Shown: one piece after another, positions 17,934 to 26,290 of the stretch
Layout of the letters: each line of letters begins with the position of its first letter
Position numbering within the stretch: the stretch's first letter is position 1
Made by a program: the position numbers and the translations under genes
DNA from: Nitrospinota bacterium
GTDB lineage: Bacteria > Nitrospinota_A > UBA7883 > JACRGQ01
Direction: 5' to 3'
DNA: 40,048 bases
NCBI GenBank assembly: GCA_029881495.1
Contig: JAOUMJ010000027.1
Coordinates: forward strand, 1 to 40,048
The notes under the pieces: model-generated
Databases searched by the model: none
The model's input: only the letters and a program-made list of their open reading frames with translations
What the model was told of the DNA's origin: nothing

Positions 17934-19634
17934 CTACTCCTCGAAATAGGCGACGCGGTCAATCTCATCGATCGTAGTTAATCCCCGGAGGACCTTCTTG
18001 ATACCATCGTATCGCAGATTCAGATACCCCTCTTCCTCGGCCGCTCTCTTCAATTCCAGAGTGGAGGCGTTCGCTATCACCATCTCTCTCAATCGCTCGG
18101 TAACAAAGATCATTTCATGGATCCCGATCCGCCCCTTGTAACCGCTCCCGTTGCAGATCTGGCAACCCTTTGGCCGACAGAACTTGACCTCGGTCTTTCC
18201 GTCCCACTCGAAAAGCTCGTCCATCTCTTTTCTGGACGGCGTGTAGCTCTCCTTGCAGTTGTCGCAAAGCATTCTCGCAAGCCTTTGCGACATCACGCCG
18301 ATAATTGATGGCCCGACGATGAAAGGCTCTACCCCTATCTCTATAAGCCGCGTGACCGCCTGTATGGCGTTGTTGGTATGCAGGGTTGAAAGGACCAGGT
18401 GCCCTGTAAGCGCCGCCTCGGTCGCCATTTTTGCCGTTTCCAGGTCTCGTATCTCCCCTATCAGTATTACATCCGGATCCTGCCTCAATATCGAGCGGAG
18501 CACCGTGGAAAAATTAAGGCCTATCGAATGGTTTATCTGCACCTGGTTGATCCCGGGGACTGAGTATTCGACAGGATCCTCTACTGTCATTACATTCAAT
18601 TCCGGTTTGCTGATCCGCTTCAAGGTGGAGAAGAGTGTTGTTGTCTTTCCGCTACCTGTCGGCCCGGTGACGAAGAATACGCCGTTGGATGATTTCACAA
18701 GCCTGATGACCTTGTCATAGATCGCTTTTGAAAGGTAAATATCCTCAAGCTCCGGCACGGTACGCACCTGCACTTCACCAAGGATCCTCAGCACCGCCTT
18801 TTCCCCGAAAACGGTGGGCGCCGTAGAGACCCTGAAGTCGACCGTTTTTTTTGAGAGTAGAATGCTTATCCTTCCGTCCTGAGGTTTGCGTCTCTCCGAG
18901 ATATCCATTCCGCCAAGGATCTTTATTCGCGATATCAGGGGGGCGTGCAGATCCTTGAACAGTTTCACCCTCTCCCGCATCAGGCCGTCTACGCGGAAAC
19001 GGATACGCACCTGCTTTTCAGTCGGTTCGATATGGATGTCGCTGGCCCCCTCCTTCACTCCAAGGAGGAGAATCGACTGTGAAAAATCGATGACCGACTG
19101 ATCCCCCGCCATCCTGTTCAATTCGACTGCGGTTATCTCCCTGCCGGGAGTTATGAGTTTTGAAACGTCGATCTTCCCTAGCTGTTCTTCGAGTTCGTGA
19201 ACGGTCTTGTACTGGATCTCAATCGTATCGAGAATATCCTCGCGGAATGCGAACGACGGGCTTATTTTCGCGCCGGTTATTTTTTCCGCCTCCTTTATCA
19301 CTTTTTGATCCAGAGGATTCGACATCACGGCGGTTATCGCATCTCCTAGCTGATAAACGAGCACTATCTCATGTTTTTTTGAGAATTCCTTTGGTAACTT
19401 GGAAATTACTTCGGGGCGGAACAGTGTTTCATTGCAGTCGAGCCACGCAAATCCGAACCCGTCGCCATACAGCATCCCCCCCTCTTCCCTTGAGACAAGC
19501 CCCTCGCCGATAATGTGAATGAGTATTTCATATGTGTCCTGCTTGTACTGTCTGAGGAGAAGGTTCAGGACTTTTTCATCGACAATTTTCTTCTCGACTA
19601 GAATACTCAGGAATTTCTGGTTTTTATGGCTCAT
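17934..19634 (-). CDS. GspE/PilB-type secretion or pilus assembly ATPase
   Basis: The 566-residue protein has an N-terminal MshEN-like domain (about 1-150). The AAA+ secretion ATPase core follows: ASDIHIEP, Walker A GPTGSGKTTT, the Asp-box VEDPVEY, Walker B DPDVILIGEIRD and the His-box TLHTNNA. A zinc site C-x2-C...C-x2-C is in CDNCKESY...CQICNGSGYKGR. It drives assembly of pseudopili (type II secretion) or type IV pili from the cytoplasmic face of the inner membrane. gspH-K lie 4 kb away, so it may serve that system. The start at 19634 overlaps the stop of the 48-aa gene (ATGA); an upstream in-frame start at 19697 lies inside that gene and was rejected. It is the last gene of a CheY-like/48-aa/ATPase operon. 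Confidence 0.93.
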   Translation of the reverse strand: MSHKNQKFLSILVEKKIVDEKVLNLLLRQYKQDTYEILIHIIGEGLVSREEGGMLYGDGFGFAWLDCNETLFRPEVISKLPKEFSKKHEIVLVYQLGDAITAVMSNPLDQKVIKEAEKITGAKISPSFAFREDILDTIEIQYKTVHELEEQLGKIDVSKLITPGREITAVELNRMAGDQSVIDFSQSILLLGVKEGASDIHIEPTEKQVRIRFRVDGLMRERVKLFKDLHAPLISRIKILGGMDISERRKPQDGRISILLSKKTVDFRVSTAPTVFGEKAVLRILGEVQVRTVPELEDIYLSKAIYDKVIRLVKSSNGVFFVTGPTGSGKTTTLFSTLKRISKPELNVMTVEDPVEYSVPGINQVQINHSIGLNFSTVLRSILRQDPDVILIGEIRDLETAKMATEAALTGHLVLSTLHTNNAIQAVTRLIEIGVEPFIVGPSIIGVMSQRLARMLCDNCKESYTPSRKEMDELFEWDGKTEVKFCRPKGCQICNGSGYKGRIGIHEMIFVTERLREMVIANASTLELKRAAEEEGYLNLRYDGIKKVLRGLTTIDEIDRVAYFEE

Positions 19635-19777
19635 TTGCCGGTTTCTTTTTTTCTTTTCTCTTCGAGCATTTTTCTGATGTCGGCCTGTGAGGCCCATTTT
19701 TTCTCAATCACGACATGAATCTTGCTGTCTTCCTTTATCTCTTCCAGCATCTTCGCAAGATTGTATTTTACCGGCAT
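19631..19777 (-). CDS. Small charged protein between response regulator and secretion ATPase (48 aa)
   Basis: The 48-residue frame starts ATG at 19777 and ends TGA at 19631-19633. The stop overlaps the ATPase ATG (ATGA), and the start lies 2 bases after the stop of the CheY-like gene. AAGGGAAG is a good Shine-Dalgarno 5-6 bases before the ATG. The sequence opens MPVKYNLAKMLEEIKED and closes with a lysine/glutamate-rich helix (ADIRKMLEEKRKKETGK), so it is probably a soluble helical protein. I recognise no family. Position alone suggests a small adaptor or co-regulator of the ATPase. Confidence 0.72.
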   Translation of the reverse strand: MPVKYNLAKMLEEIKEDSKIHVVIEKKWASQADIRKMLEEKRKKETGK

Positions 19778-19779
19778 GT

Positions 19780-20181
19780 TTACTTCCCTTTAATTGATTT
19801 CTGGTAAAAGCCCCACGATTCCTTTATGCTCGCCTTGATCTCGTCGAGCGACGTGTCTTTCCTTATATAGCACGACGCCCCGGCGTCAAGACACTCCTGC
19901 ACGACATTCATCGAGCTTACGGCAGTAAGCATCACGACGAACGCTTTTGGAAATTCCTTCATCACCTGCTTCAGCGCCGCTCTGCCGTCAACTTGAGGCA
20001 TGTTTATATCCAGCAGGAGAATGTCGGGTTTATGCTGACGATACAGGTTTACCGCTTCACTCCCGTTCCCGGCTTCGGCAACAACTTCCGTATTCATGGA
20101 GAGGAATACCCTCTTCATCAGCTCCCTGATATGGAATTCGTCCTCGGCAAGAATAACCCTCACCTTTTTCTTTTCATTCAT
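19780..20181 (-). CDS. CheY-like single-domain response regulator
   Basis: The 133-residue protein is a lone receiver domain: ILAEDE acidic pocket (13-15), phospho-acceptor D58 in LLLDINMPQ, switch threonine in VMLTAVSS, and lysine in YIRKDTS. It has no output domain, so it should act by binding a partner. AGGA precedes the ATG. The 48-aa gene starts 2 bases after its stop and the GspE/PilB ATPase follows, which suggests that phosphorylation tunes the secretion or pilus ATPase. No cognate kinase lies adjacent. The partner is inference from gene order only. Confidence 0.93.
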   Translation of the reverse strand: MNEKKKVRVILAEDEFHIRELMKRVFLSMNTEVVAEAGNGSEAVNLYRQHKPDILLLDINMPQVDGRAALKQVMKEFPKAFVVMLTAVSSMNVVQECLDAGASCYIRKDTSLDEIKASIKESWGFYQKSIKGK

Positions 20182-23671: not shown

Positions 23672-24631
23672 CTACTCGCCCCCGACCCTCCCTCCTTCCG
23701 AGGATTCGGATATTGCCGGAACGAAATCTTCTCCGTAATAGTCATCTGTCCAGTCGAGTATCACAATATTTCCATTTGGCAAACGCTTCACGACTGCGCG
23801 GATGTGATGGGCCATCTTGTTCCCTGTAAACCGCCCGGAAGAGACGATGGTAAATACATCCGATTTATCCACAAGAGAGGCAAATCCGTTCATCTCCCTG
23901 AAAGACATTATTTCGTCTATCTCCGCTTCGTTCTTCCCTGATACAAAAAGCGCCTCCGGTGAAGCGGTATTAACATTGATCCCGGTTGCGGGGTAAACGG
24001 TCAGCACCTTTGCGAGTGTTTGATAAACCGATTCGGAAATCCCTCTCACTCTACGCAACTCGTTTAGCGTGTCGAATTCGGAATTTTTTGCTTCGTATGG
24101 ATCAGGAAGCGAAGCATAGTAATCGCTTTCCGCTCCGTTCGGGCGCGAAAGTTCATCCGCGTCGACCCAGTCAAGTATCGAGTCGACTACCAGCGCTATA
24201 TCGACCTCCCCTTCAGAAAAAAGAATGGCAAACAGAAGCGAGAACCTTACAGGATCCTTTGCGAGGACGTTCAAATTCAGCTTCCTGTTTTCATCCTCTA
24301 TCCTGTAGGATACGTACCCATCCCCCAGCGGAATGTTTTCCCTTCTGGTCGGCTCCAGTCGAATGTTTTCTTCGCTCCCTTTGCCAAAAACCAGACCGGC
24401 TTCCTCGGATTCAAAAGTGAAATCGTGCATACGCAGAATCTCCCCTATTCCGAGCTGTACCCCCGCGTACGCCAGATAATACGCCCCACGGTCCTCGCTG
24501 AAATTGGCAACAGCCCTCACATCCCCCTTAACGCTTGCCACCAGTTCGGAAGAGAGCACCGCAAGGAGTACCAGCAGCCAGATTACGATCGCAAGCGCGA
24601 TCCCCTTTTGGTCCGATAAAATACGTCTCAT
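23672..24631 (-). CDS. gspK: Type II secretion minor pseudopilin GspK
   Basis: The protein of about 319 residues begins MRRILSDQKGIALAIVIWLL, the class III signal of GspK: G at -1 and a hydrophobic helix, but no E at +5, as is usual for GspK. It has the SAM-like core with LNLNVLAKDP, DSILDWVDADE, LRRVRGISES and INVNTASPEAL, all GspK features. GspK caps the pseudopilus tip with GspI and GspJ. The start at 24631 shares its A with the gspJ stop (TGATG); GTG at 24634 is possible. It is the last gene of the pseudopilin operon. Confidence 0.92.
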   Translation of the reverse strand: MRRILSDQKGIALAIVIWLLVLLAVLSSELVASVKGDVRAVANFSEDRGAYYLAYAGVQLGIGEILRMHDFTFESEEAGLVFGKGSEENIRLEPTRRENIPLGDGYVSYRIEDENRKLNLNVLAKDPVRFSLLFAILFSEGEVDIALVVDSILDWVDADELSRPNGAESDYYASLPDPYEAKNSEFDTLNELRRVRGISESVYQTLAKVLTVYPATGINVNTASPEALFVSGKNEAEIDEIMSFREMNGFASLVDKSDVFTIVSSGRFTGNKMAHHIRAVVKRLPNGNIVILDWTDDYYGEDFVPAISESSEGGRVGGE

Positions 24632-25332
24632 CACCTGACCGCCACCACGTCCGCTCCGGTTTCATTGAACAGACGTATCTCCTGGGAGGGCCATACAAAA
24701 AAGCCGTCGCCCAGCACCTTTATCATTATCCTCACGCGCTCTGGAAATATGTTCGGCATATCCTCGCCGAAGCTCCCTTCAGGATTCAGATTGACTTCGC
24801 TCACCCATGAATATTCGGGCACTTCCTCTCTCTCCCCGACTCTTCGAGCCTCCGGCACCAGGTATTCGAAACTGAAATCGTCAATTTTCCCAAAACCTAT
24901 TTCAATCGGCTCCCCCATTTCCATATCGGGTGTATAAATACTCCAGAAAGGGATTTCGAAAAAAAGAAATCCCTTCTCTTCGGGTCTGTAAACTATCCGT
25001 TGCAGATAAAGCCCCGACACGTTCGGTCCGGAAGCGAGCCTTGGCGACGGGGTCACATATGTGAGGGATGTTGAATTCCCAACGAAGGCTAGCCTTCGCG
25101 AATTATCGGCAGGGTCGTAGGCATAGACCTTCCTTGAGGTTTTTATCTCCCTGTTGAACATATTCACAGCTTCGGTTACCGAATAGTGCCCGTCTATTCT
25201 CCTTTCAGCGGCCTCCCAAACACGTATCGAGAGGTTGAATCCTTGAGAGAGTACCGCCACCATCCCGGCCAGAAGCGTAATGGCAATCATCAGCTCAAGC
25301 AGTGTAAACCCGCCGTCGCCCAACCTTTTCAC
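24631..25332 (-). CDS. gspJ: Type II secretion minor pseudopilin GspJ
   Basis: The 233-residue protein has the prepilin peptidase site G-G^FTLLELMIAITLL (cleavage after the second G at about residue 8) with E at +5. The globular domain fits GspJ length and includes AERRIDGHYSVTEAVNMFNREIK. The start GTG at 25332 overlaps the gspI stop (GTGA). It joins GspI and GspK at the pseudopilus tip in the periplasm. The call of J among minor pseudopilins rests on gene order (H-I-J-K) and length. Confidence 0.88.
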   Translation of the reverse strand: MKRLGDGGFTLLELMIAITLLAGMVAVLSQGFNLSIRVWEAAERRIDGHYSVTEAVNMFNREIKTSRKVYAYDPADNSRRLAFVGNSTSLTYVTPSPRLASGPNVSGLYLQRIVYRPEEKGFLFFEIPFWSIYTPDMEMGEPIEIGFGKIDDFSFEYLVPEARRVGEREEVPEYSWVSEVNLNPEGSFGEDMPNIFPERVRIMIKVLGDGFFVWPSQEIRLFNETGADVVAVR

Positions 25333-25763
25333 TCAACCTCCACGACTGTCTTGAGAGTTGCGAGATCAACCGTTCTTAGCGAGGATCCTTCGTCCCAGTT
25401 CACCGAAACCGAAAGCCTGTATGTTGCTATCCTCCCGAGCTCGTTTATGCCCGCCTCTTCATCGCTATTGGTGTCAGTTTCTCTGAAATACTCCTCAACC
25501 TCCGATTCCCATCGGTAATCCTTGTTGTCCGGAAAAATCCCGCTCTCCCTCCCGGGCTGGAGCGCTGCTCCCGTCATCAGGAATTCGTTCATCTTTGCCT
25601 CCGCCAGCACGGAGGCGCGCGCGTAACCTTCCGCGTTTGTCACCGTCCGAAGCGAACCGCCAAAGACGCGGAATATCGACGCCACAGCTATGGCAAGAAC
25701 GGTTACCGCGACAAGTATCTCTATAAGAGTGAAACCGTTTTCCCCTTTGCCGCGGAATAACAT
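25329..25763 (-). CDS. gspI: Type II secretion minor pseudopilin GspI
   Basis: The 144-residue protein has the signal ENG^FTLIEILVAVTVLAIA, with G at -1 and E at +5. It is short, as GspI usually is, and has ASVLAEAKMNEFL, the helix with the family's characteristic A-x-x-x-A-E/x-x-x pattern. The ATG shares one base with the gspH stop (TAATG). It lies between gspH and gspJ. A neighbouring TPR protein is upstream in the operon. Confidence 0.87.
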   Translation of the reverse strand: MLFRGKGENGFTLIEILVAVTVLAIAVASIFRVFGGSLRTVTNAEGYARASVLAEAKMNEFLMTGAALQPGRESGIFPDNKDYRWESEVEEYFRETDTNSDEEAGINELGRIATYRLSVSVNWDEGSSLRTVDLATLKTVVEVE

Positions 25764-26290
25764 TATCCTGCTTCCCCTCTCCCTGATTTCACGGATGTCA
25801 ACTTTACCCGGCCCGAGATCGGGTCAATGGAGATTATCCACCCTGCTCCGTTTTCCGACTGCCCCGCGCCGGAGGGGATCACATAAAAAAGTCCCCCGGA
25901 AGATGCCCCAACCGGATGGAAATTGACATAGGCCTTCACTACCTGCTCTCCCCCCTGCCATAGCGTTACGTTTTCAGGGATGAGTTCGACAGGTGTGATA
26001 GCCACCTCTGTTTCACCGCTTTCCCTGTCGGCATCACGCACGGCAAAAACCTTCCGGTTCTCTCCGTCCAGTATCACCGTAAGAGGGATTTTCTCGGATA
26101 CCGACATTAATCGTGATGCGCGAATCGCCGAAGCGATCTTGCCGGCAGAGGCTCGTATCTCGGCCTTTTCGAGCGATGACTGGAAACGCGGCACCCCAAG
26201 ACCCGCCACCATGGCGATGATGAACATGACTATCAGGATTTCAAATATTGAAAAGCCCTGATTAAACCTGCAGTTTCCCATCGCCCCCAT
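25763..26290 (-). CDS. gspH: Type II secretion minor pseudopilin GspH
   Basis: The 175-residue protein has the class III signal NQG^FSIFEILIVMFIIAMVAGLG; the second mature residue is Ser where Thr is common, and E at +5 is present. The beta-rich C-terminal domain fits GspH/FimT. The start at 26290 is preferred; an ATG at 26281 is also open. It is the first of four contiguous pseudopilin genes. The major pseudopilin GspG is not in the window. Confidence 0.83.
   Translation of the reverse strand: MGAMGNCRFNQGFSIFEILIVMFIIAMVAGLGVPRFQSSLEKAEIRASAGKIASAIRASRLMSVSEKIPLTVILDGENRKVFAVRDADRESGETEVAITPVELIPENVTLWQGGEQVVKAYVNFHPVGASSGGLFYVIPSGAGQSENGAGWIISIDPISGRVKLTSVKSGRGEAG

Follow-up and report, generated by a model that had tools for sequence, protein, structure and literature searches.

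Routes by which chemosensory or two-component signalling reaches the motors of pili and secretion systems are known in few lineages. The accessible text of PMC9126983 assigns the binding of phosphorylated CheY (CheY-P) in FliM and FliY to the EIDALL motif, and presents CheF as an archaeal adaptor, separate from CheY, between CheY-P and the archaellum. In Synechocystis, the PATAN-CheY regulators PixE and PixG act on the ATPase PilB1, according to the available parts of PMC7690835 and PMC12288463. Other ATPases of this superfamily answer to PilZ/FimX (PMC11656802, as available in part) or to c-di-GMP through an MshEN domain (PMC5013675, likewise). Here, we describe a three-gene locus that has something in common with each of these systems. 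It lies in a window of 40,048 nucleotides, the whole stretch of DNA that was analyzed, which is one contig (C27) of a 2.8-Mb genome that is 97% complete. Its features are as follows.

17934 to 19634, minus strand: PilB/GspE-superfamily ATPase, 566 aa (PF00437, 3.6e-124; PF05157, 4.4e-10)
19631 to 19634, minus strand: ATGA, shared by the stop codon of the 48-aa frame and the start codon of the ATPase (from the sequence)
19631 to 19777, minus strand: 48-aa protein of an uncatalogued family, defined by homologue searches, without Pfam or NCBIfam match
19664 to 19696, minus strand: FliM-like segment WASQADIRKML, residues 28-38 of the 48-aa protein (FliM-derived matrix)
19780 to 20181, minus strand: stand-alone CheY-like receiver, 133 aa (PF00072, 4.6e-26, and relatives)

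The 48-aa protein moderately resembles the N-terminal peptide of FliM/FliY: its [SA]Qx[DE]I and the hydrophobic residues after it would make up a short helix, and its partner would be a CheY-like receiver. However, here the helix belongs to a stand-alone protein of 46-54 aa encoded before a PilB/GspE-type ATPase, not to a flagellar switch. Its proposed role, as a separate adaptor joining CheY to an appendage motor, is reminiscent of CheF, but the two are set apart by description, since the accessible text of PMC9126983 presents CheF as a large dimer that has PH-like domains and contacts CheY on a different face. Control of a pilus extension ATPase by a receiver recalls PixE and PixG, in which, as far as the available parts of PMC7690835 and PMC12288463 go, the PATAN domain is on the receiver protein itself, whereas the present locus pairs a bare receiver (no PATAN domain fused to it was found in the family search) with a separate small gene. 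PilZ, too, is a small PilB cofactor, but one of about 120 aa in the available text of PMC11656802, as against 48 aa here with two predicted helices in a modelled relative. Finally, the c-di-GMP motif of MshEN-type ATPases, as given in the accessible part of PMC5013675, does not occur in any of the six cassette ATPases tested. We found no such small adaptor in the literature searched, which was seen in part and had subscription papers and preprints outside its scope.

On the minus strand, the receiver is followed by a 2-base gap, the 48-aa frame, the ATGA overlap and the ATPase. An earlier note on this DNA had described these junctions exactly, coordinates included; the interval it gave (19631-20181) encloses the receiver and the 48-aa frame and leaves the ATPase outside, and the Shine-Dalgarno that it rated as good is present (AAAGGGAAG, 6-14 nt ahead of the ATG) but fair, not strong. 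The small gene of one relative, G018, has a clear GGAGG upstream. Scanning for promoters and terminators yielded no helpful site. Since the longest possible ATPase frame begins at 19697, within the 48-aa gene, an automatic annotation could overlook the small gene.

The small protein is conserved in place. A single-sequence search of 97 genomes found homologues in G018 (E 5.2e-7) and G022 (E 0.0016), both flanked by the same receiver and ATPase genes. A three-row profile run on 385 genomes at E 0.001 matched four, its three own rows and G315, a member of another GTDB phylum in which the small frame again lies between receiver and ATPase. Within that phylum (77 genomes), a four-row profile added G426 and G410; G408 emerged when a six-row profile was run on 387 genomes. 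This gives seven loci in two GTDB phyla, the window included, all with a frame of 46-54 aa between receiver and ATPase that begins 1-13 nt past the receiver stop. In the closest pair, G410 and G408 (one genus), dN is 0.17 and dS 1.07 for the small protein, compared with 0.16 and 0.92 for the receiver, and the other two reading frames hold stops. The small protein is under purifying selection in this pair, and the 48-aa frame is a genuine gene. The earlier note had proposed checking whether relatives carry it with the same two neighbours, which six more genomes do, and had named frameshifts or lack of protein-level conservation as grounds for giving it up; these selection values and the seven intact frames out of seven speak for keeping it.

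Two segments stand out in the small proteins, an N-terminal one with the pattern [FYI][DN]LxxMxxEIxx[DE] and a C-terminal one with [SA]Qx[DE]I. In the six-row alignment the invariant residues are M1, the L, M, E and I of the N-segment, and the Q and I of the C-segment. No family was found in Pfam-A or NCBIfam (best E 0.12, in one of six members), and the protein is new to these libraries. A PDB profile search with it gave nothing meaningful. Genome contigs gave no match to the single protein and one to the three-row profile, once more in G018; viral contigs gave none. Several candidates were discarded as chance: 11 of the 15 matching genomes of the single-sequence search (frames of at least 246 aa), a 59-aa frame with other neighbours in G023, the profile matches in G005 and G010, and those of the six-row profile in G433 and G118. 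An internal repeat of the two helices was likewise rejected (p was 0.003 for the window protein but 0.05-0.96 for the five others tested).

The ATPase belongs to the PilB/GspE superfamily, with a T2SSE domain, the Walker A sequence GPTGSGKT and two CxxC motifs, while falling under the NCBIfam cut-offs of both PilB (TIGR02538, 514.8 of 675.65 bits) and GspE (TIGR02533, 528.2 of 630.25). Its N-terminus is a partial MshEN domain without the c-di-GMP motif. When the 24-residue RLGxx motif was sought with the relaxed pattern of PMC5013675 (from its available text), it was found in none of six cassette ATPases (one partial match; G408 left out), compared with 20 of the 39 PilB/GspE-type proteins outside the cassette whose N-terminus is long. 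Judged by sequence, the cassette ATPase is a separate clade. In the window's phylum (24 genomes), the G018 protein scored 704 bits and the next protein 405, the G022 ATPase, cut by a contig end, being below the cut-off; in the other phylum (77 genomes), four ATPases scored 933-999 bits and the next 552, three of the four being rows of the profile and G408 not. In both searches, the genomes with this ATPase clade are the genomes with the small protein.

The window's genome encodes four further PilB/GspE-type ATPases. By eye, one lies in an apparently full type II secretion operon on another contig, two have a PilC/GspF-like frame nearby, and the fourth (730 aa) has none. In the window, the neighbourhood of the cassette showed no PilC/GspF-like frame. 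The cassette ATPase thus resembles an orphan motor, one that would work on a pilus or type II secretion platform whose genes lie at another place.

As for the receiver, PF00072 covers residues 9-119 of 133, and the only other family match is a chance one. The phospho-acceptor D58, the acidic pair E13/D14, T86 and K108 are all present, and identity to six relatives is 48-53%. A histidine kinase gene immediately precedes the receiver in four of the seven loci (G018, G426, G410 and G408), and G315 has a hybrid kinase downstream of the ATPase; no adjacent kinase is present at the window or G022 locus. The best candidate for a cassette-type kinase anywhere in the window's genome scored 185 bits, against 447-453 for the kinases of G015 and G016, which are rows of the profile used. 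As the genome is 97% complete, loss of this kinase is likely, though not certain. G015 and G016 carry a kinase-receiver pair of the cassette families without small protein or ATPase (L083 5608-6921 and L084 4828-6141), and G022 has a further cassette-like receiver at a contig end, making three such receivers that lack both.

We next consider the C-segment, which moderately resembles, in sequence, the FliM helix that binds phospho-CheY. It reads WASQADIRKML, WASQDEIKKLA, SASQDEIKKLV, NLAQDDIKKMI, TVSQNDILNLL, KLSQKEILEMM and KLSQKEIKEKL in the seven loci; FliM of the window's own genome starts MSQVLSQDEVDALLRG. A FliM-like regular expression had been devised after viewing the small proteins and was therefore kept out of the evidence, a matrix derived from FliM only being used instead (12 distinct peptides from 23 of 30 FliM loci, the other seven being left out because the wrong frame was picked). 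With this matrix, the best-scoring stretch is the aligned C-segment in all seven small proteins (shuffle p 0.0008-0.030). Among 127,154 background windows, between 9 and 214 reach the score of a given small protein, 214 being the figure for the window's protein, and the small proteins score 2.7-10.4 compared with 23-33 for FliM-like N-termini. The aspartate of EIDALL is lost, its place being taken by K, R or L. More generally, S-x-x-[DE] is a common helix cap.

AlphaFold2 (AF2) modelling of the G315 small protein from six sequences predicts two helices, 3-27 and 33-48, with a mean pLDDT of 68.8 and the highest confidence (81) in residues 41-50. When the G315 receiver and small protein are modelled as one chain, the receiver is confident and the small protein scores 54-59, except residues 171-180 at 74; confidence in the C-segment does not rise above the 81 that it has alone, which speaks neither for nor against docking. 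The receiver model is closest in fold to Thermotoga maritima CheY, and its nearest solved structures include entry 4iga, CheY with the FliM peptide.

The likeliest single reading of the small protein, with about an even chance of being right, is that of an adaptor. We put forward, with the same balanced confidence and from sequence comparison, that the three genes may be a conserved signalling cassette in which a micro-adaptor docks the receiver on an orphan pilus or secretion ATPase. The histidine kinase would phosphorylate the receiver, which would grip the small protein by its C-terminal helix, as CheY-P grips FliM by its N-terminal one. The N-terminal helix of the small protein would hold the ATPase, probably at its N-terminal domain, and the ATPase would thereby be recruited, activated or stopped on its platform. 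We infer the binding steps, the platform and whether the effect is to start or to stop the motor; the links made by the adaptor are drawn from gene order, co-occurrence and the motif. Several findings favour such docking: the trio is kept in seven genomes of two phyla, co-occurs with the ATPase clade and adjoins a kinase in four loci, the FliM matrix picks out the same segment in every member, the MshEN motif is absent, and the modelled G315 receiver matches T. maritima CheY best. G022, moreover, has the trio although FliM was not found in its genome (81% complete), nor in those of its genus mates G015 (94%) and G016 (91%), which disfavours a flagellar role. Docking is weakened by the moderate FliM likeness, the lost aspartate, the three lone receivers, the in-frame stops in the G410 and G408 ATPases (see below) and the missing cassette-type kinase. 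The earlier suggestion of a receiver controlling the ATPase through a small adaptor thus fits the conserved trio, the four adjoining kinases, the receiver residues and the FliM-like segment, and fits poorly with a window genome that lacks such a kinase. If the proposal is true, a minimal four-part cassette of kinase, receiver, adaptor and motor would make the link testable with purified proteins, and a CheY-docking helix would exist as a gene of its own. More tentatively, and with a chance of only about one in three, these proteins may define a new class, that of free-standing two-helix micro-adaptors of 46-54 aa, whose FliM-like CheY-docking helix and motor-binding helix would have taken a PilB/GspE-type motor out of c-di-GMP control and placed it directly under a two-component receiver.

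A somewhat unlikely alternative would make the small protein a constitutive subunit or stabilizer of the ATPase, unrelated to phosphorylation, with the receiver regulating the ATPase directly. It would account for the tight spacing and overlap with the ATPase gene and for co-occurrence with the ATPase clade, and it has parallels in Xanthomonas PilZ, which binds and stabilizes the N1 domain of PilB (PMC11656802, available in part), and in the PATAN-CheY regulators, for which the accessible text of PMC7690835 and PMC12288463 describes binding to PilB1 and mentions no adaptor. However, the receiver is just as conserved in place, and the C-segment is like a CheY-binding peptide, both of which sit better with an adaptor.

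Phosphatases or inhibitor peptides that act on a receiver or kinase are exemplified by CheZ and Sda. That the small protein is of this kind, acting on the receiver or kinase only, with the ATPase as an ordinary output, is improbable: its gene does come directly after that of the receiver, and one of six members has a weak RapH_N match (E 0.36), but three receivers of the same family, two of them in kinase-receiver pairs, do without it, whereas the cassette ATPases seen have one. As for the 48-aa frame being a spurious part of a mis-started ATPase, an idea invited by the 19697 start inside it, the separate frame in seven of seven loci and the purifying selection refute this almost entirely.

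The adaptor reading, which we retain, has to accommodate signs of instability. The cassette ATPases of G410 (L131) and G408 (L132), from the same genus, have one in-frame stop each, reflecting either early decay or assembly error, so the ATPase may be dispensable there. Downstream of its intact cassette, G018 has the small protein and the ATPase N-terminus a second time, in tandem and decayed (L021 2690-3237). Together with the two stops, this second copy suggests that the cassette is at times copied and lost.

Other features were noted around the cassette. In G426, a STAS-domain protein and, by eye, a second STAS-like frame lie upstream (L091 4393-5123) and a further stand-alone receiver downstream (L091 437-820), while in G408 two tandem receivers are found between kinase and small protein (L097 610-1496). 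In the window itself, GspK and three N_methyl pseudopilin-like genes with no adjoining ATPase or platform occupy 23672-26290 on the minus strand, 3.5-6 kb from the receiver, with apparent housekeeping genes between.
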